Source of the DNA: an uncultured Clostridia bacterium
GTDB lineage: Bacteria; Bacillota; Clostridia; Christensenellales; Borkfalkiaceae
Assembly: GCA_930990665.1 (NCBI GenBank)
Contig: CAKNQN010000011.1
Coordinates: 1 to 51,296 of the forward strand
DNA length: 51,296 nt
Direction: 5' to 3'
Under the pieces are notes generated by a model, which made no database searches, was not told where the DNA came from, and worked only from the letters and a program-made list of their open reading frames with translations. Made by a program: the position numbers and the translations under genes. Shown one piece after another: positions 6,880-50,973 of this stretch; the first letter of the stretch is position 1, and each line of letters starts with the position of its first letter.

Positions 6880-7500
6880 ATGAATATCATACTTCTCGGC
6901 GCGCCGGGAGCGGGCAAAGGTACGCAGGCAACGCGTATTTCCGAAAAATTCGGTCTGCCGCACATTTCGACCGGCGACATCTTCCGCGACAACATCAAGC
7001 GCGGCACGGAGATCGGGCTTCTCGCCAAATCGTACACGGACAAAGGGCAGCTTGTTCCCGACGAAGTGACCTGCAAGATCGTAGAGGAGCGGCTGAAGGC
7101 TCCCGACTGCAAAGACGGGTATCTTCTCGACGGATTTCCGCGCAATCTTTTCCAGGCGCAAGAGCTGGATAAGTTTTCGAAGGTAGACGCGGTGCTCAAC
7201 ATCGACGTCGATCTTTCTCTGCTGATGGCGCGTCTGTGCGGCAGGCGTGTGTGCAAGAACTGCGGCGAAAGCTACCACGTAGATTTTCTGGGCGGGAAGG
7301 CCGACTGCGAGCGTTGCGGCGGCGAGCTGTACCAGAGGAAGGACGACAACGAGGAGACGGTAGGCAATCGCCTGCGCGTCTACAACGAGCAGACGGCGCC
7401 CCTCATCGAGTATTATACGAAGAAAGGAGTTCTGCGCAGCGTAAACGGCGTGGGGGACATCGAAGAGGTGTTCGCGCGCATCTGCGAGGTACTCCGCTGA
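6880..7500 (+). CDS. adk: Adenylate kinase, zinc-lid type
   Basis: A 206-residue kinase catalysing ATP + AMP = 2 ADP. It has the P-loop GAPGAGKGT at residues 7-15, the AMP-binding STGDIFR, and DGFPRN. The lid carries two Cys pairs (CKNC and CERC), the structural zinc site usual in Gram-positive bacteria. It lies in the usual secY-adk-map position, 64 bases after secY. Length is slightly below the typical 214-217 residues. Confidence 0.98.
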
Positions 7501-7512
7501 AAGGCGGCCGAT

Positions 7513-8256
7513 ATGATCACGATCAAAACTGAGAGCGAGATCGACGCTCTGCGCGAGTCCTGCGCGATCGTGCGCGACACGCTTGCGTACGTGGGCGGCC
7601 TGGTCAAGCCCGGCGTCACGACAAAGGAGCTGGACAAAGCGGCCGAAGAATTTATCCGCATGCGCGGGGCATACCCTTCCTGCCTGGGATACTGCGGCTA
7701 TCCGGGGAGCATCTGCGCCTCCGTCAACGAAGAGGTCGTGCACGGCATACCGGGCGAGCGGGTGCTGCGCGAGGGCGACATCATCAGCGTCGACCTGTGC
7801 GCGTACAAGAACGGTTTTCACGGCGACGGCGCCCGCACCTTTGCGGTAGGGCGCATCGACGAAGAGAAGCAGAAGCTGATCCGCGTCACTGAGGAATGTT
7901 TTTTCGCGGCGGTGAAGGATCTGCGGGCGGGCACGCCGCTGTACGATATCGGCGCGGCGGTGCAGGCACACGCGGAAGAGAACGGCTTTTCGGTCGTGCG
8001 CGAATATGTCGGGCACGGCATCGGCCGGGAGATGCACGAAGATCCTTCGGTACCGAATTTCGGCAAGCGCGGCACGGGAATCCGCCTCAAAGCGGGCATG
8101 GTGCTGTGCATCGAACCGATGATCCTGGCGGGGGGGCGCGGCGTAAACGTACTGGACGACGGCTGGACGGCTGTCACGAAGGACGGCAAGCCGGCGGCCC
8201 ACTATGAAAACACGGTGGTCATCCGGGAAGAGGGCGTCGAGATCCTCACGTTGTAA
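7513..8256 (+). CDS. map: Methionine aminopeptidase, type I
   Basis: A 247-residue enzyme that removes the initiator methionine from nascent proteins. All five metal ligands of type I MetAP can be seen: two Asp in [20 protein letters not shown], His in [12 protein letters not shown], Glu in CIEPM and Glu in YENTVVI. It starts 12 bases after adk. No N-terminal SH3 or zinc extension is present. Confidence 0.98.
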
Positions 8257-39830: not shown

Positions 39831-39930
39831 TTTACATTTTATAGAAAATAAACCACAAATAAATGTTATTTTAAAACAGTCGTTAACAAAAAAATAACAA
39901 AAATGCGATTTTGTCCACGGTTTGTCCACC

Positions 39931-39946
39931 GAGGCTTTTTTGCCTC
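39931..39946. repeat. GAGGC/GCCTC palindrome, left flank of the integrase relic
   Basis: GAGGC-TTTTTT-GCCTC followed by TAAA. A second palindrome (GAGGC-TAA-GCCTC, 40339-40351) lies beyond the relic in the opposite orientation, judged by its flanks (CACC/TAAA here, GTTA/GATG there). They may mark the ends of an old insertion. Confidence 0.4.
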
Positions 39947-40302
39947 TAAAATGAGGTGTTTTTTCTATAAAAAATGTGGTGGTAAATTCCGTTTTTATGG
40001 TAATAGCTGGTTGCTGAGTTACATCGGTTGATAATGCTTCTCCAAAAAGAATGTAATCTTTCGTTGCGAGGTGTCTTATCAACTTTTACTTTTGCTTTGG
40101 TTTCAAAAATTTTAACGATAGAGTCTTCCATTGTTTCAGTTTCTTCCACGTAGTAGGTCATGGTAGTATCTATCGTTGCGTGACCAAGTCTTGCCTGCAC
40201 GCCTTTAATAGGGGCGTCGTTTTCGGCAAGTTTTGTGCCGTGTGTATGTCTTAATCCGCGGAAGTGAAAGTTTGTGATGCCAAGGCTTTGTCTGCATGCT
40301 CC
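39946..40302 (-). pseudogene. Tyrosine recombinase (integrase), C-terminal relic
   Basis: Starting just after an in-frame TGA (40303-40305), the minus frame reads GITNFHFRGLRHTHGTKLAE then VQARLGHATIDTTMTYY, i.e. the catalytic Arg-His-x-x-His, the second His and the nucleophile Tyr region of phage-type integrases. The N-terminal two thirds are missing and no start codon precedes the catalytic block. The C-terminal end after VKVDKT is degraded and may be frameshifted. It is probably the decayed integrase of an element that entered beside secA. Confidence 0.8.
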
Positions 40303-40338
40303 TCAAAGAATTTTATAAATGTTTATATGTATAAGTTA

Positions 40339-40351
40339 GAGGCTAAGCCTC
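40339..40351. repeat. GAGGC/GCCTC palindrome, right flank of the integrase relic
   Basis: GAGGC-TAA-GCCTC, the partner of 39931-39946. Confidence 0.4.
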
Positions 40352-40416
40352 GATGGGGGGGGAAAGAATTAAATTGGCTTTTAATTTAAAAACTTTGATT
40401 TTTTCATGGTTGCCTC

Positions 40417-40494
40417 CTGTCTAAATATTGCATATATTTCATAAAAACAAATAACGTAAATACGTTATCAAGTCTTATACTGTCTAAATATTGC
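40417..40494. repeat. Two 15-bp direct repeats
   Basis: CTGTCTAAATATTGC occurs at 40417-40431 and 40480-40494, 63 bp apart, in AT-rich DNA. On the minus strand the first copy abuts GGAGGCAACC and an ATG (40407-40405) that opens only an 8-codon frame, perhaps the truncated start of a lost gene. Confidence 0.5.
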
Positions 40495-40528
40495 TTATGT
40501 TCTTCAAGAAATATAAAGCATGGTGCTT

Positions 40529-41006
40529 TATATTTCTTTTTTATGGAACAGTTTGACCCAATATTCATATTGTTTTTTGTAACCATACGCCATGATGTCG
40601 TTGCAGTTCATGTGTTTCATTATTTTTTCTAAAAGGGAGGACTCGGATGAATCGTTATAGATGTTGACAAACAGAGCGTTCTTCCTTAAATTGTTTAAAT
40701 TCACGAACTGATGCTTTTCAGGCGGAATTTCTCTATTGAATCGAAAGAATGTAAGAGTGACTTGTTCTGGCTTTATACTTGTATTGACGTTAACAGGTCT
40801 GAAAAGAAAGTCATCACTTCCTTTAAAGAGTTGTTTCTTACCCGTAGGTAACCCACGATATCCATCAGCAAATCGCAGAGTATCAAGGATATCGAATCTC
40901 CAAACAAATGAGAAAATATGGGACGTGTGATCGAAATAAAATATTTTAAAGTTTTTTTATTAGTGAAAGTCTTCGATAAAAGGAAGAACGGCTAATCTTT
41001 AATGTG
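40529..41006 (-). pseudogene. Start-less ORF, probable gene fragment
   Basis: On the minus strand a frame is open from a TAG near 41009 to the TAA at 40529-40531, about 160 codons, without a usable ATG or GTG in its first two thirds. It reads ...HIFSFVWRFDILDTLRFADG, later FKGSDDFLFRPVNVN and ending EYWVKLFHKKEI, which looks like real protein. I do not recognise the family. Its 5' part overlaps the recombinase 3' end in another frame, so it is likely the C-terminal remains of a gene cut by rearrangement. Confidence 0.5.
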
Positions 41007-41545
41007 GACAGGGCATCATAAAGGGTAATTTCTTTTTCAATATATTTTTTTGCAACAAAAATAAATTGTTCGTATAAGACGATTTTGGGTCTGCCAAATT
41101 TAACACCGCGTTCCTTGGCGATGCGGATCCCTTCCGCTTGTCGCGCCCGAATGTTAGAGCGTTCGTTTTCCGCCACAAAGGACAAAACTTCCAAAACGAG
41201 ATTGGATACAAATTTCCCTAACAGTGTATCCAAGCGGCTCCGAGTATCTAAAAGAGGCATATCCAAAACAAGGATATTTGCTCCTATCGACTGTGTGATT
41301 TTATGCCATTCTTCTGTGATCTGGTCATAATTTCTGCCCAGTCTGTCCAAAGACTGAATAACAAGGAGGTCATCTTTTTGCAAAATGCCGCGCAGTTTCA
41401 GGTACTCTGTACGGCAAAAATCTTTTCCGCTGCTCTTTTCTGCATAAATATTTTGCTGAGGAATTCCGAATCGTTTGAAAGAATCGAGCTGTCTTGCCAA
41501 ATTTTGATCTTTCGCAGACACTCGCGCATAACCGTAAGTTTTCAT
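40946..41545 (-). CDS. Serine recombinase (resolvase/invertase family)
   Basis: The start is ATG 41545 behind AAAGGAGTACATC, giving 199 residues, the size of Hin/Gin-type invertases. The N-terminal catalytic domain has YGYARVSAKDQN with nucleophile Ser10, and the conserved VIQSLDRLGRNYD. The dimer helix E (VSNLVLEVLSFVAENERSNIRARQAEGIRIAKERGVKFGRPK) and a C-terminal helix-turn-helix (YDALSTLKISRSSFYRRL) complete the fold. It is intact. It ends 66 bp short of an inverted-repeat-bounded promoter segment, on which it most likely acts. Low GC marks it as part of the accessory island. Confidence 0.92.
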   Translation of the reverse strand: MKTYGYARVSAKDQNLARQLDSFKRFGIPQQNIYAEKSSGKDFCRTEYLKLRGILQKDDLLVIQSLDRLGRNYDQITEEWHKITQSIGANILVLDMPLLDTRSRLDTLLGKFVSNLVLEVLSFVAENERSNIRARQAEGIRIAKERGVKFGRPKIVLYEQFIFVAKKYIEKEITLYDALSTLKISRSSFYRRLSLIKKL

Positions 41546-41610
41546 GATGTACTCCTTTTTTGTGAAAAGCATAGCAAAAAAGCGGGCAGTTGAAAATAAA
41601 AATCGGGTTT

Positions 41611-41630
41611 CAAAAAAGTACACCAATTTG
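41611..41630. repeat. Left 20-bp inverted repeat of the invertible segment
   Basis: CAAAAAAGTACACCAATTTG, the exact reverse complement of 41757-41776. It lies between the recombinase start and the promoter and is the likely crossover site. Confidence 0.9.
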
Positions 41631-41653
41631 AAACTTGGAAACAGTGTAAAATA

Positions 41654-41669
41654 TTGATAATTTTATCAA
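41654..41669. other. Small palindrome inside the invertible segment
   Basis: TTGATAA and TTATCAA around TT. It could be an operator or a recombination accessory site; no function assigned. Confidence 0.3.
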
Positions 41670-41687
41670 AATATATCTTAAAAAACC

Positions 41688-41716
41688 TTGAAAAGTATAA
41701 TAATCTATGCTAAAAT
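41688..41716 (+). promoter_or_regulatory. Promoter inside the invertible segment, facing the surface operon
   Basis: TTGAAA (41688-41693), exactly 17 bp, TAAAAT (41711-41716). Transcription would start near 41724 and cross the right repeat into the signal-peptidase gene at 41824. As sequenced the operon is therefore in the ON state. No comparable promoter lies between 41777 and 41824. Confidence 0.85.
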
Positions 41717-41756
41717 AAAAGTACAGAATATATTTAATGATAAAATATTTAAATTC

Positions 41757-41776
41757 CAAATTGGTGTACTTTTTTG
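41757..41776. repeat. Right 20-bp inverted repeat of the invertible segment
   Basis: CAAATTGGTGTACTTTTTTG, a perfect inverted copy of 41611-41630; 126 bp lie between the two. Confidence 0.9.
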
Positions 41777-41823
41777 GGACAAGCTGCATATAGTTAAAAG
41801 TATGAATGTTAAAAGGACTAATT

Positions 41824-42564
41824 ATGGAAGAGAGAAAACGGAAAATTGACAAATTAAGCATGATCGTGATGATTGTCCTCATTGTTCTGCTTTTGCCTGT
41901 ACTGATTGTAAACCTTACTCTCATCGTAAAGGGTAGCATTCACCCCGATACGCCGCCTGACGTGTTCGGCATTGCGCCGCTTGCGGTCACGTCCGGTTCA
42001 ATGGACGGCGACAGGGAGGGCAGCTTCGCAAAAGGCGCCTTGATTTTTGTAAAACTTATGGGCGAAGAGGAAAAACAGACGCTTGCGGAGGGGGACGTCA
42101 TCACTTTCCGCACATCGGGCGCGTTTGTAACGCACAGAATTGTCTCCGTGTTCCGCGATGAAAGCGGCAAAATCATCTCCCTGGTAACGCAGGGCGACGC
42201 AAACAATATGACGGACGGAGCGATCGTGTTGGAAAATGTGGTGGGGAAATGCGTGGGAAGCGTCGGCGGACTCGGCGATTTTGCCATGTTCATGCAGACG
42301 CCTGTCGGTATTCTCGTGTTTGTTGGAATTCCCGTTTTGCTTTATATCGCGTACGACGTTTCGCGCGTGATGATCTTCAACAAGCGGGCAAAGTCGGACA
42401 AAAGCGCCGAATTGCAGGAAAAGGACGCAGAAATCGAGCGTCTGCGCGCATTGGTAGAAAAGCAGGGCATTCAGGAAGGCTCGGAACTAAAAGAAGGACA
42501 GCAGGAGGAGACCCAACCGCCGCAATCGGAAAGCGAAACAATTTTCGAAAAGAAAGAGGAGTAA
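41824..42564 (+). CDS. S26B (SipW-type) signal peptidase with long C-terminal tail
   Basis: The start is ATG 41824, 6 bases after AAAAGGA; the ATG at 41806 has no site. The 246-residue product has an N-terminal membrane segment (about 13-35), catalytic Ser59 in VTSGSMDG and His104 in FVTHRIVSV. His in place of the usual Lys defines the ER/archaeal-like S26B class of SipW. A second membrane segment (about 160-178) is followed by a cytoplasmic coiled-coil and Glu-rich tail unusual for the class. It is the first gene of the operon. It should cleave the atypical signals of the downstream proteins. Confidence 0.9.
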   Translation: MEERKRKIDKLSMIVMIVLIVLLLPVLIVNLTLIVKGSIHPDTPPDVFGIAPLAVTSGSMDGDREGSFAKGALIFVKLMGEEEKQTLAEGDVITFRTSGAFVTHRIVSVFRDESGKIISLVTQGDANNMTDGAIVLENVVGKCVGSVGGLGDFAMFMQTPVGILVFVGIPVLLYIAYDVSRVMIFNKRAKSDKSAELQEKDAEIERLRALVEKQGIQEGSELKEGQQEETQPPQSESETIFEKKEE

Positions 42565-42628: not shown

Positions 42629-43279
42629 ATGACAAAGAGAAAAAATGTTGTTTCAAAAATGTTGTTGTTGGTGGTCATCCTTACGCTGATCAGCTGCTGC
42701 TTCCTGGGGAGCACGTTTGCCCGTTATACCAGCAGCGGAAAAGGTACGGGAACGTTGGAAGTTGCTACATGGAAACTTTCTCATGCAGGAGATAATATTG
42801 ACGTTAATTTTAATATGCTTTCTCCGTCGAAGGATGTTTATAGTTCTGAGGATCGTAGCAATTCTACGGGCAGATTGCTTGTTGCAACTATTACATATGA
42901 GGTCGATGTCGAAACAATTCTTACCTTTAGTACGGGCGAAGCTGTCTTTGGTGGAAGCCCGGCATATGGTTCTAAGGGGGTAGCATCCGATGGAATTCCT
43001 ACAGAGGAAGAAGTAAAAGAAGTTTTCTCTATCGCACTGTATGTAAATGAAAGTGGTGATGATGCAGACGCTGCAACGGCTTATTCTGAAATAACGCTGG
43101 AAGCTGAATCAAAAGGTACTATTTATGTATATGCTGAAGTGACCTGGACAAGCGATACTGCTGATATTAAGGGGGAAAATGCAGACAAGCGTGATACTTG
43201 GATCGGAGGAAATATTACGGGTTTGACTTACAACATTTCCTATACGGCTGTCCAGAACACGCAGATCCCCGAAGCATAA
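42629..43279 (+). CDS. Small TasA/camelysin-like secreted protein
   Basis: A 216-residue protein. After a basic N-terminus, residues 11-27 are hydrophobic, then STFARYTSSGKGTGTLEVATW, the typical SipW-dependent signal layout with a spacer strand after cleavage. The rest is a beta-rich domain without Cys, as in TasA/camelysin, ending YNISYTAVQNTQIPEA. Family members polymerise into biofilm matrix fibres or sit on the cell surface. It follows a very good GGGAGGTTTGAA site. Base composition is more AT-rich than the later operon genes. Confidence 0.8.
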   Translation: MTKRKNVVSKMLLLVVILTLISCCFLGSTFARYTSSGKGTGTLEVATWKLSHAGDNIDVNFNMLSPSKDVYSSEDRSNSTGRLLVATITYEVDVETILTFSTGEAVFGGSPAYGSKGVASDGIPTEEEVKEVFSIALYVNESGDDADAATAYSEITLEAESKGTIYVYAEVTWTSDTADIKGENADKRDTWIGGNITGLTYNISYTAVQNTQIPEA

Positions 43280-43407: not shown

Positions 43408-44820
43408 GTGTTTCGTATGGAAACGGAAAACGAAGAAAGGAAAGTGTCGGAATCATCTCGGACCGCGCAGGAAAAGGCTCCGTCAAACATTCCGACGGCG
43501 GCGGAGCGCTCCAATCGTTCGTTTGCCGAACGAATGGGGGAGGCTGGTTATGTTGCCGGCAGACGTTACGATGCTGTAAAAAATGCGTTTCTTGCCTATA
43601 AAACGGCAGAACGTAAGCCGAAAAACGTGCGTTCGCGTATTTCCCGCAGCGGGGAAATTTTTTACTTGGGCAGAAAAGTTTTGGGGAAAGTATGCCTGGT
43701 GGGTGGTTACATTCGCCTGTTCCTGGCGCTCGATCCCAAGCTCTACAATGTAGAAAAATATCATCATAAAGACTATTCGGAAGTTGTGCGTTACGCAAAA
43801 TTTCCTTTTATGATAAAACTTTCCTCAGACAGACAGGAAAGGTATGCCGAGGAACTCATCGATGAACTTCTCCTTCTCAACGGTTTTGTGCGTGACGAGG
43901 AGTACATCGTAAAAGATCAGGCAAATATCTTTAAAAAACCCAGGCACAAAAAGGCGGTACAGGAAACCACGGAAATCCGTACCGTCTATGTACCCGTTCC
44001 CGCAGAAACGGAAGCCGCGGCGGCGGAGGACATAGGCGAACCCGAACAGATTGACGTGCGCCTGCCGCGTCGTGCTGCTGTCTTCAACAAGCAGGGCGAG
44101 CGCATCGGTAAAGTCCGCAAGGGCGTCTGGCAGGACGAAGAGGGCAACGAACAGGGCACATTCGTCAAGGAAGAGACAAACGTATTTGTCTATTCCGGCG
44201 AATCGCGCACGGGCTATGTGGACAAAAACGACAACGTCTTGTCCCTATCCAACAAGTACATAGCCACCCTGCGCAGGCCGGAGCGGTTCTGGATCCTAGC
44301 TCTCGTGCTGTTTTTGGTGCTCGTCACGCTGCTCACTATTATTTTAAGCGCCTATTTTCTCACGCGGTCGGAAAACTCGGACTACGCGCCCGTCATTTTC
44401 ATCGCGTCGGAGGACGGCACCAGTTGGGAAGATGCCGAAGATCTGCCCATTTTCTTTAACGAGACGTTCGGTGATACAAAAGTGGCACCCGGCATGAAAG
44501 GGACCTATCGCTTCACTTTTGAAAACAGAAACAAAAATACTTTGGATTATTCGATAACGTTCAGCGAGGAAAACGAATACGGTATCGCAATTTTATACCG
44601 TTTAAAGCGGGACGGCGCGTATATTTCGGGTACGCAGGCCTACGTTTTTGCCGACGAGCTCAGTCTGGATGGACTCACCATAGAGGCGCAGTCGTCTACG
44701 GTATTTGAGCTGGAATGGTGTTGGCAGGACAACGACGAAGCGGATACGGTCGCGGGGCAGAACTCCGCCGTGTATACGCTTACTATTTCTTTATCGGCGC
44801 AAGTCAGCGTGCGGGCATGA
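43408..44820 (+). CDS. Single-pass membrane protein with TasA-like ectodomain
   Basis: A 470-residue protein. Residues 1-290 are hydrophilic and presumably cytoplasmic, with two conserved-looking blocks: LFLALDPKLYNVEKYHHKDYSEVVRYAKFPFMIKLSSDR (about 101-139) and GERIGKVRKGVWQDEEGNEQGTF to NVLSLSNKYIATLRRPERFW (about 227-292). One membrane segment spans about 292-315. The outer part (about 316-470) is beta-rich (APGMKGTYRFTFENRNKNTLDYSITF, TLTISLSAQ) and resembles camelysin/TasA-type domains. It may anchor the fibre or sense assembly; this is inference. Confidence 0.7.
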   Translation: MFRMETENEERKVSESSRTAQEKAPSNIPTAAERSNRSFAERMGEAGYVAGRRYDAVKNAFLAYKTAERKPKNVRSRISRSGEIFYLGRKVLGKVCLVGGYIRLFLALDPKLYNVEKYHHKDYSEVVRYAKFPFMIKLSSDRQERYAEELIDELLLLNGFVRDEEYIVKDQANIFKKPRHKKAVQETTEIRTVYVPVPAETEAAAAEDIGEPEQIDVRLPRRAAVFNKQGERIGKVRKGVWQDEEGNEQGTFVKEETNVFVYSGESRTGYVDKNDNVLSLSNKYIATLRRPERFWILALVLFLVLVTLLTIILSAYFLTRSENSDYAPVIFIASEDGTSWEDAEDLPIFFNETFGDTKVAPGMKGTYRFTFENRNKNTLDYSITFSEENEYGIAILYRLKRDGAYISGTQAYVFADELSLDGLTIEAQSSTVFELEWCWQDNDEADTVAGQNSAVYTLTISLSAQVSVRA

Positions 44821-44824
44821 AAAT

Positions 44825-45337
44825 ATGGGTAAGGTAAAAATAGTGATTCGTACACTTCTTCTCGTCGTGATCGGGGTATTGGTGGTGTACAACGCTTATA
44901 TACTGATTGCCCGTACGCTGTTTAAAAACGGAATGCCCGTAGCGTTTGGGTTTGCGTGTGCAACCGTCGTTTCTGGCAGTATGGCGGATGAGATCGAAGT
45001 GGGCGATTTCATCATCACCAAATCGCAGAAAGAATATGTTGTTGGGGACGTCATCACCTTTTACGACGATAAAAGTGGCTCATATATCACACACCGCATT
45101 ATCCTCGTTTCAGGTGATACATATGCGACAAAAGGGGATGCAAATGATACGGCGGACGATTTCAGCGTTCCCAAGTCGGCGGTGGTAGGCAAGGTTGTGG
45201 CAGTGTGGAAGGGGTTCGGAAATGTCGTTTACTTTTTGCAAAGTCCGCTCGGGCTTTTCTGCGTGATCGGAGGCGGCATTGTCCTCTGGGTTTTGACGAA
45301 TATCGTTATGGAGGTGCTTAGGAAGAAAAATGAGTAA
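44825..45337 (+). CDS. Second S26B (SipW-type) signal peptidase, compact
   Basis: A 170-residue peptidase with an N-terminal membrane segment (about 8-30), catalytic Ser52 in VVSGSMADEIEVGDFII and His90 in SYITHRIILVSGD, and a C-terminal membrane segment (about 141-160). It is the minimal form without the tail of the first peptidase. It starts 4 bases after the membrane-protein gene behind GGGTAAGG-like sequence and overlaps the next gene by 8 bases. Two peptidases in one operon suggest different substrates or sequential use. Confidence 0.9.
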   Translation: MGKVKIVIRTLLLVVIGVLVVYNAYILIARTLFKNGMPVAFGFACATVVSGSMADEIEVGDFIITKSQKEYVVGDVITFYDDKSGSYITHRIILVSGDTYATKGDANDTADDFSVPKSAVVGKVVAVWKGFGNVVYFLQSPLGLFCVIGGGIVLWVLTNIVMEVLRKKNE

Positions 45338-46712
45338 AAAGATAAAAATTCCCATTATAAGATATTTAAGCTATCTGCTTGTTGTCAGTCTGCTGTTTAC
45401 GGGGGTGACTTTTTCTCGCTACTCCATGACGACATCGGGGGACAGCGCAGCGTTGCTTTCGCGCTTTCATTGTTCATACAAGGTGGACGAAATTTCGGCG
45501 ACATCCATTCCAAATGTCAATTATTGGTTAAATAACAACAGCGCTGCCAGCACGGCGCGTACATTGCGCTATACGATCAGTAATTTCAAGGGCGACGTTA
45601 CCAGCGACGTGGCGGTGAGGGCGCACCTGCGCGTGTACCTGCCTGCCGAGATGGCAAGGCACCTCGCGCTCCAGATTGGAAGCATGAATATCGAGGAAGG
45701 AACGGTCACTTCCTATACCCCTGAGATTGTTCTGGATGAACTCATCGCGAAAAGGGATGGCGACGCGGCGCAGGGCATTGCGCAGACAACTCTCAATACA
45801 AGCTTTTTTACAAATTATTATGACAGCGGAGTGCACAATGCGGAGGACGAAGAACTTTCTATAAGCGGTTCGCTGGCAGAAACGGCGTCGTCTCGTACCA
45901 TATCGGCGGTAAGTGAAGGTGGTTCGGGGCTTTCCTTTACGATCACGGCAAGTAACAAGGCTGCGCAGTATTCAATAGGATTTCAGCGCGGCAAAAACGA
46001 AAACGACTACGCGCCCCAGCTCTATCTCGACCTCGTTCGGGAAACGGAATTTTACACGATCGATCTGTACCTTCCGTCCATGGAATTCCCCGCAGGTCAG
46101 CCGCTCACAAAAATGTATATCGTCTATCTCACCCTCACAAAGCGCTTGAAAGGTTCGGATTTTCAGGCGCACTGGTCGGGCGTGGAAGGCGTAGACGCCG
46201 TTCTCGCAACGACGGACGAGGCAGGGAATGTTCCCGTGGATGATAACTCCGTTCTCATCAGTTCTCCCCCCGCGGCGGGCGAAGCGTATTACTACAACGG
46301 CGCCAGGGTTTTGGGGTATCATTTCGATCAGACAACGCAATTTGCGGCGCAAGCGATGGCGGAAGGGGATACTCCCAAATCCACCACGGTGCGCATACAG
46401 TGCCTGTACGACGGCGACGGAGGCTATAACATCAATCTGTTCCACGTCGCGCCTATCACGAAGGATTCCACGGAAAATTACGTGCATCCCATCACCACCG
46501 CACAAGGTTCCGCCATCGTCTTTGACAAGGAGAACAATACGTTCAGCGGAAATTTCAGCACGGGTACGTGCAATCAGCACATTGACATTGATTTGAAAAA
46601 TATTACGGCTCATCCTTTCACGGGAGAGCTGAACGCCTATCAGGTGCTTTCCAAAAGCTATGAAGTAAACTTCAAAGCGCTGTTTGTGCAGGCGTCGGAA
46701 TCGGAGGTGTGA
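45330..46712 (+). CDS. Large secreted protein with SipW-type signal
   Basis: A 460-residue protein. Hydrophobic residues 13-28 are followed by TFSRYSMTTSGDSAALLSRF, matching the signal layout of the other secreted proteins here. The mature part is beta-rich with a DYAPQLYLDLVRETEFYTIDLYLPS segment and a late FDKENNTFSGNFSTGTCNQHIDIDLKNITAHP. No LPxTG, no C-terminal membrane segment. It is likely a structural or fibre-associated protein. The start ATG overlaps the peptidase stop by 8 bases, so translation is coupled. Confidence 0.75.
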   Translation: MSKKIKIPIIRYLSYLLVVSLLFTGVTFSRYSMTTSGDSAALLSRFHCSYKVDEISATSIPNVNYWLNNNSAASTARTLRYTISNFKGDVTSDVAVRAHLRVYLPAEMARHLALQIGSMNIEEGTVTSYTPEIVLDELIAKRDGDAAQGIAQTTLNTSFFTNYYDSGVHNAEDEELSISGSLAETASSRTISAVSEGGSGLSFTITASNKAAQYSIGFQRGKNENDYAPQLYLDLVRETEFYTIDLYLPSMEFPAGQPLTKMYIVYLTLTKRLKGSDFQAHWSGVEGVDAVLATTDEAGNVPVDDNSVLISSPPAAGEAYYYNGARVLGYHFDQTTQFAAQAMAEGDTPKSTTVRIQCLYDGDGGYNINLFHVAPITKDSTENYVHPITTAQGSAIVFDKENNTFSGNFSTGTCNQHIDIDLKNITAHPFTGELNAYQVLSKSYEVNFKALFVQASESEV

Positions 46713-46713
46713 T

Positions 46714-49700
46714 ATGACTGCAAAGATCAGAAGTATATTCCTTCCTGTCCTCCTATCCCTCGCCATACTCTCCATGCTCACTGTGTCCCTTACGCTGGGC
46801 AGATATACGCAGGAAACCGAGTCGGAAGGCATTTATTCGGGCGATCTCAACTACATTATCTCCAACCAAGTGGAGATCGAGTCGGTGGACGAATTTTTCA
46901 CGGCCATTGAAAACGGCTACAACAACATTAAGATCAAGGACGATGTTGATAACCCACTCATCATTTCGGGTGGGATCAGCGACGTCAATTCCGACCTCGT
47001 CATTGACCTCAACGGCCACGAGATTCAAAGGAACAACCGCGAACCTCTCCTCAATGTCACGCAGGGCGTCAAGCTCACCATCATCGATACGTCTGAGGAA
47101 CAGACGGGTAGCTTTTATAATCCGGTCGGCAGCGTGCTGCGCATCAGCGGTGGCTCCCTCACTGTCTCGGCGGGAGAGTTTGAAAGCGGCCCCCGCAGCG
47201 GCGAGGAGGGTGCGCGCCTCAGCGAGTACTATGATTCAACCACCCAGGCTACCCGCAAGGGTGCCAAAATCGACGAAGACCACAGCGTTTCCAGGCTGTA
47301 TTACGAGGACGATTGGTACTATGACGGCGTTTCCATGCCCGTCATTCTCCCCAAGGTGGATACGCTGTCAAACGGCAACTATTCCGTCAACGGGAATATG
47401 TATTTCTCCGAAGGTTACAATGACAATACCTATATTCCCGCGGATACGTATCTGTATTTCACGCTGGACGATTCCACCGTCGAAAATGCTACCATCGCCG
47501 CTGAGGGCAGTGCGGATTATTTCTATACGTATTATTTAAACCGCGGCACGTTCGACTACGCACAGATGCAGGAGCCGTCAGATTCCACCGTTCAAATCAA
47601 AGTCTATGTGTACAACGGCGTAAAGAGCGCGGCGGCGACGACGGAAAAACCTTTTTCCGCCATTGAAATGGAGAGCGGAAACCTGTTTGTGCGCGGCGGC
47701 ACCTATCGTTCGTACTTCGGGGAAAAGGATACCTATTGCGTCAATACTTCGGGCGGATATATGGCGATTGAAGCGGGCAAGTTCTATGCCTACGGCAGGA
47801 GTGTCTGCGTGCAGTGCGATTACGCTGCCGACGTCAATATAGAAGAACAGTATCTTCGGGTTTCCAGCGGCGATTTCTATTCGGAAGCGGGCGACACCAT
47901 CGGCGTTTCCGGCGGAAGAATGGTCGTTTCCAATGCATCTTTCGTCAAAAATGCCGTTGATTTTGAACTTGAATCCAATATGCGCAACGTTAACGGTTCG
48001 GCCATCCGTGTATCGGGCGGTTCGCTCATGGTCTCCGCATCCTCCGAGATTCATTTCTCGCTGTATGGTTCAGGCATGAGCGGAATCACTGCGGAAGGGA
48101 AGAGCGCTTCCGTCAGCGTCCGCAACGTGAAAATGGATTTCTATTCCGAAAGGTCGAACTCTGCAGGTCAGAACGATTCGAGCGACGCCGCAGGTATTTT
48201 GTACAACACGGGTATCTACGCGGCGGGCGGAGGCAGCGTTGTCTGTGATGGAAACACCTCTTTCAACGTCATCGGTTCCTATTCTTCGGGCATCTATTCC
48301 GAGGGAGGGGCTATCAATCTCAACGGCGATACGTTCAACTGTTCCGTTAAAATGGCGACGGACGGAGAGTTCGGCAAAGAACTTTCCAGTACCGCCATCA
48401 GTACCGTCGGGGGCAACATTAACTTTAACGTAAAAGAGGCAACCGTCTCTTCCAACGGGCTGGGCATTACTGTTGGCGGCGGCAACATCAGTTTCAGTCA
48501 TTCCGAAAAGGAGGCTATCAATATTACCACCACGCGAGGCACCGCCATCTATGTGTACGACGGGGAAGTTTCCGTCGATGAGAATTCCATCGTCAATATC
48601 ACAAGTACGATCGATTCTTCCTGTTCGTGGGTGGTGGATACCAGCGGAGGAAGCACGGGGATTACCGATACAAACGTCAATATTAACAACGGCGTGTACA
48701 TCAACGGCGGTTCGCTCATCTCAGATGGGGAAATTATGGTGCAACACACGGGCGTGGAAAACAGTTCGGCGGGATCGGGCCTAATCGACAGTAAGATCAA
48801 AAGCTACGCCGTGCGCGTAGATGGCCAGCTGAGTTCGGGAACAAGTACCATCGATGCGCAAAAGCTTACCATTAATGTCTCTGAAAATGGCGGCGGTCTA
48901 TACGTCAAGGATGGTTCCATTACTCTGGATACCGCAGAGATTAAAGCGCAGGGCTTCGGCATTGCAATGCGCGGTGAAAGCGGCGATAACGTCACAATCA
49001 ATACAACGCTTGCCCTCACTTCGTACAAGACAACGGGTATTTATATTACGGGCGGTTCTTTGACCCTCAACGGCGAAACGACCGTCAATTCGACGATCGA
49101 CGGAACTTACACGTTCTGCGGGGGAAATGACCTTCCCAAAGACTCTTTCGACGGTGTTTTTGTCGAGCGCGGTTCTCTCACGGCGGCAAAATCGTTTACG
49201 GTCAATTTTTCGGGACTTTCCAATAACCCGAACGAAACTTTTTCCAGCATGGTCAAGAGCTATGCCGTGCGTGTGGACGGTTCGGGTGCACAGGGAAGCG
49301 GGACGCAGAGCGGTGCTTTCTTTACGGCAACAAACTTAAACCTCTTCATCAATGCGGAGGCAGACGGCGGCGGGTTGTACGTCAATCAGGGAAAGATCTC
49401 CCTTGCTGATGCGAAAATTACCGCGCAAGGGTACGGCATTGCTTTACGCGGCGAATCGGAAACGGATTCCGTTACGATCACGAAGTCGTTGACTATTACT
49501 TCCGCACGGACGACGGGCATCTACATTACGGGCGGTTCGCTCACTTTGGCGGAGGGGAGTGAAGCGCGGATTGTTTCCGATATCGACGTAGGGTATTCTT
49601 TTTGCAAAACGGAAAACAATGCCACCGTGTCATACGACGGGGTATTTGTCGAGGGCGGTTCGCTGTATGCAAACGGCACTTTCAATGTTAAGCATGAAGG

Positions 49701-50853
49701 GATCGTCAGTACTGCGCCCACAAATATTCCAAACGGTTCTTATGCTTTTTTGCATCATGAGATCAAAACATATGCGGTTCGCGTCACGGAATTGGGTTCG
49801 GACAGAGCCGCCAATGTAAATATCTCTAAGGGAATGATCCAAAACACGATAGGAGGCGGTGTCTTTGTTTCCGGCGGGACTGTCGAACTGGGTTCCCGAG
49901 GAGACGATAACGGGAATTTAATTGTAATGACGCTTGGTGAAAAACTGCTTCCTGATTCGTATTCTGTGCATTCCAGCGCCCCGAATTGGGTTTACAGTCT
50001 GAGTAAATCGGGGGGGAATGCCATTGAAGTCCAGGGCGGAAGCCTCACGGTGAACAGCGGCACTTATACCGCAATGCAGGGGAATGGAATACTTGTGCGC
50101 AATACGGAATCTTCCGCAGTCAGCAATAAGGTCACCATCAATGGCGGAAACTTTTACGGGTATAATTCTGGCTATAATCTCGGGGCCAACGACAGAAAAG
50201 TCGGTCCGGGTGCGTCTGCGGGATTGTACGTTATGGGGCATAGCCTTACGGTCAACATTAACGGCGGTACGTTCGGAAACAAGGACAGCAATGCCGAAAG
50301 CAACAGTGCGGCAGTATTTTTCGGAACGCCTGGCGGAGAAAGGGCGCAGGTCAATATTTACGGCGGAAATTTTTACGGTAGCAAGAGCGACGTGCTCAGT
50401 GTGTTCCGCTATGTGGATTTTGAGTTCGATGCATCCAATACAACCACGCCCATTATGGTGGAAAATGCCAACGGCAACGCTTCGGCCGCTCTTTCCGTGC
50501 AGGATGATCTGATTTATAATACCTATAATTATTCGGACCGCGGTTCCACCATCGTTATCCGCAATGGCAATTTTATTGCAACGGGGGCGGGGATCTATTA
50601 CGGCAGTAGTGTGGATAGACTCCTCGTTTCCGGAGGAACATATGAAGGAAATGAGGATTATGCGATCAATTTTGCATACGATCCGGGAGATACACAGGTT
50701 AAACTTTCCGGCGGCGTGTTCAAGAGAAAAAATACATCCATTTGGGATGTGCTCGGGGGCGCAGGTTATCCCGATTACAACGAAAACAATGTTCTGGAAA
50801 GCGGATACGTTCTCAATAAAGATTGGGGAGAATGGACAGTCGTTCGTTCCTAA
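46714..50853 (+). CDS. Giant repeat adhesin-like secreted protein
   Basis: The start ATG 46714 follows CGGAGGTGTGAT, giving 1379 residues. The signal is hydrophobic (about 8-28), then LTLGRYTQETESEG. The body is many short G-G-S-L-T/V strands spaced about 20-30 residues, the pattern of right-handed beta-helix adhesins and pectate-lyase-like folds. Near residues 640-1090 there is a longer repeat of about 159 residues: GGGLYVKDGSITLDTAEIKA at 726 and GGGLYVNQGKISLADAKITA at 885. No sortase motif or anchor. It could coat the surface or bind the operon's fibre proteins. Confidence 0.8.
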   Translation: MTAKIRSIFLPVLLSLAILSMLTVSLTLGRYTQETESEGIYSGDLNYIISNQVEIESVDEFFTAIENGYNNIKIKDDVDNPLIISGGISDVNSDLVIDLNGHEIQRNNREPLLNVTQGVKLTIIDTSEEQTGSFYNPVGSVLRISGGSLTVSAGEFESGPRSGEEGARLSEYYDSTTQATRKGAKIDEDHSVSRLYYEDDWYYDGVSMPVILPKVDTLSNGNYSVNGNMYFSEGYNDNTYIPADTYLYFTLDDSTVENATIAAEGSADYFYTYYLNRGTFDYAQMQEPSDSTVQIKVYVYNGVKSAAATTEKPFSAIEMESGNLFVRGGTYRSYFGEKDTYCVNTSGGYMAIEAGKFYAYGRSVCVQCDYAADVNIEEQYLRVSSGDFYSEAGDTIGVSGGRMVVSNASFVKNAVDFELESNMRNVNGSAIRVSGGSLMVSASSEIHFSLYGSGMSGITAEGKSASVSVRNVKMDFYSERSNSAGQNDSSDAAGILYNTGIYAAGGGSVVCDGNTSFNVIGSYSSGIYSEGGAINLNGDTFNCSVKMATDGEFGKELSSTAISTVGGNINFNVKEATVSSNGLGITVGGGNISFSHSEKEAINITTTRGTAIYVYDGEVSVDENSIVNITSTIDSSCSWVVDTSGGSTGITDTNVNINNGVYINGGSLISDGEIMVQHTGVENSSAGSGLIDSKIKSYAVRVDGQLSSGTSTIDAQKLTINVSENGGGLYVKDGSITLDTAEIKAQGFGIAMRGESGDNVTINTTLALTSYKTTGIYITGGSLTLNGETTVNSTIDGTYTFCGGNDLPKDSFDGVFVERGSLTAAKSFTVNFSGLSNNPNETFSSMVKSYAVRVDGSGAQGSGTQSGAFFTATNLNLFINAEADGGGLYVNQGKISLADAKITAQGYGIALRGESETDSVTITKSLTITSARTTGIYITGGSLTLAEGSEARIVSDIDVGYSFCKTENNATVSYDGVFVEGGSLYANGTFNVKHEGIVSTAPTNIPNGSYAFLHHEIKTYAVRVTELGSDRAANVNISKGMIQNTIGGGVFVSGGTVELGSRGDDNGNLIVMTLGEKLLPDSYSVHSSAPNWVYSLSKSGGNAIEVQGGSLTVNSGTYTAMQGNGILVRNTESSAVSNKVTINGGNFYGYNSGYNLGANDRKVGPGASAGLYVMGHSLTVNINGGTFGNKDSNAESNSAAVFFGTPGGERAQVNIYGGNFYGSKSDVLSVFRYVDFEFDASNTTTPIMVENANGNASAALSVQDDLIYNTYNYSDRGSTIVIRNGNFIATGAGIYYGSSVDRLLVSGGTYEGNEDYAINFAYDPGDTQVKLSGGVFKRKNTSIWDVLGGAGYPDYNENNVLESGYVLNKDWGEWTVVRS
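48889..49842 (+). repeat. Internal ~477-bp (159-codon) repeat in the adhesin gene
   Basis: Equivalent points 48889 and 49366 are 477 bases apart. Protein motifs recur in order in each unit: GGGLYV, AQG.GIA.RGE, TTGIYITGGSLTL, the DGVFVE.GSL and the SYAVRV/TYAVRV. The copies have diverged at DNA level, so this is an old duplication. Confidence 0.75.
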
Positions 50854-50940: not shown

Positions 50941-50973
50941 ATGAGTTCGGTATTTTACCGGACTCATACCTTT
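50941..50973 (+). terminator. Candidate terminator of the surface operon
   Basis: ATGAGTTCGG pairs with CCGGACTCAT (one G-U) around TATTTTA, followed by ACCTTTTA. It lies about 90 bases after the adhesin stop. Confidence 0.6.

Follow-up and report, generated by a model that had tools for sequence, protein, structure and literature searches.

Among the described recombinases closest to the case presented here, Hin is located inside its own invertible segment, Mpi of Bacteroides has thirteen or more distant regions as its targets, and RecV of Clostridioides difficile is a tyrosine recombinase, as stated in the excerpts of a published account (PMC5903667). For the invertons of gut bacteria, the excerpted text of a survey states that invertases lying near invertons are generally not placed in such a way that the inverton promoter could drive them, with one possible exception (PMC11892184). 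The locus described here is found in the window, i.e., the whole stretch of 51,296 bases that was analysed and that represents an entire contig (G000:C11) from a genome of the genus Candidatus Borkfalkia (1.5 Mb, 74% complete). Its segment at 41611-41776 is, in all likelihood, an invertible promoter that is flipped by the neighbouring serine recombinase and acts as an ON/OFF switch for an export operon. It is well supported that this is a real phase-variation switch of an already known kind: a promoter that precedes a client gene is bounded by inverted repeats, and both orientations occur in nature when species are compared with each other.

The invertible segment including both arms (41611..41776, no strand assigned) comprises 166 bp, and inversion would reverse an interior of 126 bp. 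Its arms (41611-41630 and 41757-41776) had been predicted to be perfect 20-bp inverted repeats, and this is what they are, with 92% identity over 26 bp. The window contains no second inverted repeat that is exact over 14 bp or more with a spacer of 40-600 bp, and when the local 400 bp were simulated 2000 times with a first-order Markov model, arms did not exceed 15 bp, a length attained in 1 simulation. A hairpin or terminator was rejected as an explanation for the repeats, the arms being 126 bp apart and a scan of 41400-41900 giving no terminator-like site; no Rfam family reached its gathering score in the window. In a Hin site, a 2-bp core is flanked by half-sites of 12 bp each, and the window arms can be read as serine-recombinase sites with this layout and AC as the core, namely TTTCAAAAAAGT-AC-ACCAATTTGAAA and TCCCAAAAAAGT-AC-ACCAATTTGGAA. 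The left site (41608..41633, plus strand) and the right site (41754..41779, minus strand) would each hold the respective arm in a 12 + AC + 12 arrangement. The half-site consensus drawn from 52 switches is rich in A and has GT at its end next to the core (86% and 92%), percentages that are partly due to selection, as alignment centres were picked for a GT or AC core and the highest dyad. The mean dyad per site, 8.4/12 versus 3.4 in random register, is inflated because the centre was chosen to maximise the dyad, and L042, L062, L126, and L133 fit the site consensus poorly. A strict paired site pattern occurs in 2/40 genus genomes (window and G023) and in none of the controls; being restricted to exact 8-mers with gaps of 130-160, this pattern misses most looser switches.

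A single promoter with the sequence TTGAAA-17-TAAAAT directed toward the operon had been proposed for the segment, and its sequence and direction stand, whereas the motif alone is at chance level (3 promoter-like matches in 501 bp versus 2.0 +/- 1.6 in shuffles), so that the evidence for this promoter consists in its conservation in relatives. It occupies 41688..41716 on the plus strand (TTGAAA 41688-41693, 17 bp, TAAAAT 41711-41716), agrees with the consensus at 10/12 positions, possesses the TG of an extended -10 element, and aligns with a promoter in the flipped segment of G023. The corresponding locus also carries TTGAAA-17-TAnnnT in G023, G010, G020, and L039, and in G007 it contains just TTGCAT-17-TATACT, a weaker motif. 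Scanning of the interval from the right arm to sipW1, with which the operon begins, revealed no promoter-like site. Judged by motif score, the promoter points toward sipW1 in the window, G010, G020, and L039; that of G007 leans toward the recombinase and is undecided by score. With a margin of 0.9 score for calling a direction, the 17 Borkfalkia-type switches divide into 6 facing the client, 7 facing the recombinase, and 4 undecided (including G023), and the corresponding figures for 28 loci with the switch on the 3' side of the recombinase are 3, 11, and 14.

The flipped form, which the original prediction had proposed to look for in related genomes, is present in G023 and in four further orthologous groups, and inversion thereby gains comparative support, which is support between species: all orientation comparisons are between species-level genomes, mostly MAGs. 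In G023, Candidatus Borkfalkia faecipullorum of the same genus, the segment is inverted between the same two flanking genes, both of which keep their orientation. Compared with the window segment, it scores 65.0 when inverted (96/127 identical) and 10.5 when direct, and 200 shuffles gave a mean of 8.7 (sd 4.7, max 21). The alignment to the window shows the G023 promoter pointing toward the recombinase; the flank on the recombinase side aligns poorly (41/77) because it is longer there. For G010, G020, L039, and G007, the segment has diverged so far from that of the window that neither orientation gives an alignment score exceeding those of shuffles. Ten orthologous groups are alignable among the 52 switches, five with both orientations (window/G023, L119/L124, L061/L114, L069/L070, and L086 versus seven others) and five with one (L043/L044, L077/L088/L091, L120/L122, L133/L136, and L137/L138). 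The cleanest case is provided by L069/L070, with a switch positioned 3' of the recombinase, where 91/91 inner bases are identical only when inverted and the flanks match in direct orientation (65/70 and 60/72 identical). Similarly, 90/98 inner bases of L119/L124 match when inverted, between flanks with 59/60 and 58/61 matches. In L069/L070, the outer half-sites are unchanged and the inner half-sites are swapped at the GT core, which places the crossover at the core; from this pair rather than from the window itself, we infer a crossover at the 2-bp core.

Two relatives display what looks like decay. Upstream of sipW1 at 955 in G004 (L172, G004:C90), there is one site with a TTGAAA-17-TAAGAT promoter facing sipW1, and the G004 genome contains no recombinase match at E 1e-20; this locus looks like the relic of a switch. 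In G020 (L132, G020:C53, ~7262-7552), a recombinase homologue matches residues 1-97 only, continues into unrelated sequence, and adjoins an otherwise complete switch. Such decay would be in keeping with a formerly active switch that became inverted between species and is now fixed, no longer flipping in this lineage, but the window has arms that are perfect over 20 bp and an open recombinase frame with catalytic motifs, and we consider fixation improbable there. Flipping that persists in the window lineage would therefore remain our preferred reading.

The intact, invertase-sized serine recombinase that had been announced to the left of the segment is borne out as an open frame of 199 aa (40946..41545, minus strand), with 65 bases separating its start codon from the left arm. 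Family matches (Pfam Resolvase PF00239, E 2.7e-22; PHROG 'DNA invertase', E 2.1e-42) and structure-profile matches make it the likely invertase. Like other small serine recombinases, it has a resolvase catalytic domain with the conserved Ser and Arg motifs, in this case Ser10 in YARVS and Arg68/Arg71 in SLDRLGRN, residues which we take to be catalytic. Among solved structures, it comes closest to Sin (2r0q, E 6.7e-28, with an alignment that spans the motifs) and gamma-delta resolvase, and Gin-like invertase structures match more weakly. A search of its own genome with the recombinase yields a single match at E 1e-20. When up to three mismatches are allowed, the site pattern is found there at the two arms and at 2 further places, each with three mismatches (control 1). 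Trans-acting or multi-site control was rejected for this 74%-complete genome, as no further good site was found. One might still argue that the segment is invertible and acted on by another recombinase, since the Bacteroides master enzyme Mpi acts on distant sites, according to the excerpted account (PMC5903667), and since other recombinases could be missing from a genome that is only 74% complete. However, the single recombinase match, the site counts just given, and the recurrence of the same site core beside related recombinases make this very unlikely, and the adjacent recombinase would be the enzyme that acts on the two arms.

Two features may be added to what was originally predicted. 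Flipping would turn the segment promoter onto the recombinase, and beyond the segment there is another promoter-like element, which is weak and conserved. This putative constant promoter of the recombinase (41568..41596, minus strand), read from the consensus as TTTTCA-17-TGCTATGCT, sits 23-51 bases upstream of the recombinase start and scores 8.75, making it weaker than the segment promoter. TTTTCA-17-TGnTATnCT is present in 4/17 switch loci (window, G023, G010, and G020) and TATnCT in 11/17, the element being absent or poor in L133, L136, L137, and L138. It may supply recombinase in both states of the segment. On the other side of the recombinase gene, about 1.1 kb (39835-40945) separate it from the terminator-like hairpin of secA, and the listed ORFs of that stretch (those of at least 80 aa) are all of 103 aa or less.

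The wider recombinase family was surveyed at 76 loci in a scan of species genomes, from which L040 and L041 were left out because they lie on the same contigs as L119/L124. Site pairs matching at least 21/26 within 420 bp occur on the 3' side of the recombinase in 28/72 loci and on the 5' side in 0/76, and controls 2.5 kb away gave 0/69 and 0/59; this threshold misses real pairs, the 5' pair of L039 scoring 19. Borkfalkia-type loci have a convincing site pair on the 5' side in 17/26 examined, and thus recombinase and client diverge from the pair. The other nine (L121, L125, L127, L128, L129, L131, L134, L135, and L139) were dropped for having no convincing pair or being too short, and L126 and L133, the cores of which are atypical, were retained among the 17. 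In a phylogenetic tree, the 16 rows with the switch on the 5' side require 3 label changes, against a mean of 15.1 when labels are shuffled, and the window recombinase belongs to supported sets of 2, 4, and 6 rows, all with a 5'-side switch; 46/97 recombinases in the tree are labelled as having no switch. Clients of the related switches include pilin-like, S-layer, sortase, glycosyltransferase, GGDEF, and restriction-methylase genes. At L088:8789-10714, and also at L077 and L091, a related switch adjoins a gene for an Eco57I-type restriction-modification methylase, and these loci are possibly a phase-variable methylation system. TnpB/IS605 OrfB-like genes are found beside related switches at L097:3883-5055 and L054:8744-9934 (the family match having been run for L097 only), and at L133 a related recombinase adjoins a replication protein gene. 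Mobile or plasmid genes next to some related recombinases, as at L097 and L133, would agree with repeats that are mobile-element ends, a resolution site, or a regulator's operator, and so would the resolvases Sin and gamma-delta as closest solved relatives. Against this, the 166-bp segment contains no transposase, its sites are inverted and not direct, and it is found inverted in relatives, which leaves this explanation with a negligible chance of being correct; inversion of a promoter accounts for the repeats in our preferred reading.

The genes downstream had been termed a surface operon. Two of the encoded proteins are recognised by curated models as signal peptidases, probably of the SipW type, whereas the other four are without a curated family match at E 0.001, and the label 'surface' is given because of signal sequences and gene order. 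The operon begins with sipW1 (41824..42564), a probable SipW-type signal peptidase I matching the general signal peptidase model TIGR02228 with 69.5 bits, above the cut-off, and the best SipW model, NF046067, with 81.3 bits, below its cut-off of 190. It is followed on the same plus strand by genes for a small exported protein of 216 aa (42629..43279), a conserved 470-aa protein found in 20/40 genus genomes (43408..44820), the second SipW-type signal peptidase sipW2 (44825..45337; TIGR02228 72.9 and PF10502 25.6 bits, both above cut-off), an exported protein of 460 aa (45330..46712), and a large, repetitive, putative surface protein of 1379 aa (46714..50853), and this gene order is kept in relatives. 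A terminator-like hairpin from the hairpin scan (50941..50967, plus strand) follows the operon; the region has 18 terminator-like sites versus 14.2 +/- 3.6 in shuffles. In an alignment of 17 of the 18 members of the 216-aa family (L174 was left out because its start codon was not found), mean identity is 47% and a TFARY motif, presumably the one known from SipW-dependent signal peptides, is invariant. Profile matching of the 216-aa protein against Pfam, NCBIfam, and the PDB gave nothing that passed, a profile of the 17 orthologues gave chance-level matches to the PDB (best E 0.44), and an AlphaFold2 model from a 3-member alignment is poor, with a mean pLDDT of 42.5; its possible likeness to TasA, the fibre protein of the TasA/SipW biofilm operon, comes from gene order and is a lead.

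The recombinase adjoins sipW1 in 5/20 genomes that encode the 470-aa protein (window, G023, G010, G020, and G007), and L039 is a further case outside this set. Among the 15 other genomes with the 470-aa protein, the region upstream of sipW1 was usable in 11 (L174 was guessed, L181 was short, and L176 and L178 were out), and in 5/11 (G061, G032, G028, G025, and G021) a fixed TTGACA-17-TATAAT promoter replaces the switch; G004, with its apparent relic, is another of the 11. Loci with the operon under such a fixed promoter are L179, L180, L182, L183, and L184. A SipW-type export operon can thus come under an invertible promoter, and sister species use a fixed consensus promoter.

In the mechanism that we propose from these sequences, the recombinase would pair the two inverted sites, cut each at the central AC, and rejoin them with the 126-bp interior reversed. 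In the orientation seen here, presumably ON, the promoter would face sipW1 and the six-gene export operon. In the flipped orientation, presumably OFF, it would face the recombinase, and the operon would be left without a recognisable promoter. The weak outside promoter may sustain recombinase production whichever way the segment lies, with a higher level expected in OFF cells. Tentatively, and with somewhat more doubt than conviction, we suggest a self-driving, asymmetric switch in which a single invertible promoter would serve the client operon in one orientation and its own invertase in the other, so that OFF cells, rich in recombinase, would soon flip back, ON cells with little of it would stay ON, and the weak constant promoter would set a floor. 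The same suggestion includes a Clostridia-wide, unnamed clade of serine invertases sharing a GT-AC-AC type of site, within which the Borkfalkia branch would have relocated a switch formerly on the 3' side of the recombinase to its 5' side. Such a self-driving placement of the recombinase predicts unequal switching rates. The locus adds a well-supported phase-variable case in an uncultured genus, and the common recombination site offers a simple handle for finding more such switches in Clostridia.

Compared with the Hin/Gin type, the locus is alike in having a small serine recombinase and sites of about 26 bp made up of two 12-bp half-sites and a 2-bp core. The hin-like anatomy that had been predicted holds for repeats, promoter, and recombinase, but not for the location of the recombinase gene, which is inside the segment in Hin and outside the inverted DNA (41611-41776) in the window; in addition, the window recombinase is closer in sequence to Sin than to DNA-invertase chains. 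It has in common with Mpi of Bacteroides that a serine recombinase governs invertible promoters at surface loci, and there is a weak sequence match to the Mpi model of 34.5 bits, below the cut-off of 272; in contrast to the many distant regions of Mpi, the search of the window genome gave a single, local pair of sites. The RecV switches of C. difficile resemble it as invertible control elements upstream of surface genes in Clostridia, but employ a tyrosine recombinase instead of a serine recombinase. Gut invertons are alike in being short, promoter-bearing intergenic segments with inverted repeats and with recombinase and surface genes adjoining, whereas the recombinases named in the excerpted survey are mostly of the tyrosine type (PMC11892184) and that of the window is of the serine type. 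Since the flipped promoter would face the recombinase here, the locus departs from the placement that the excerpted text of this survey describes as general for invertases near invertons.
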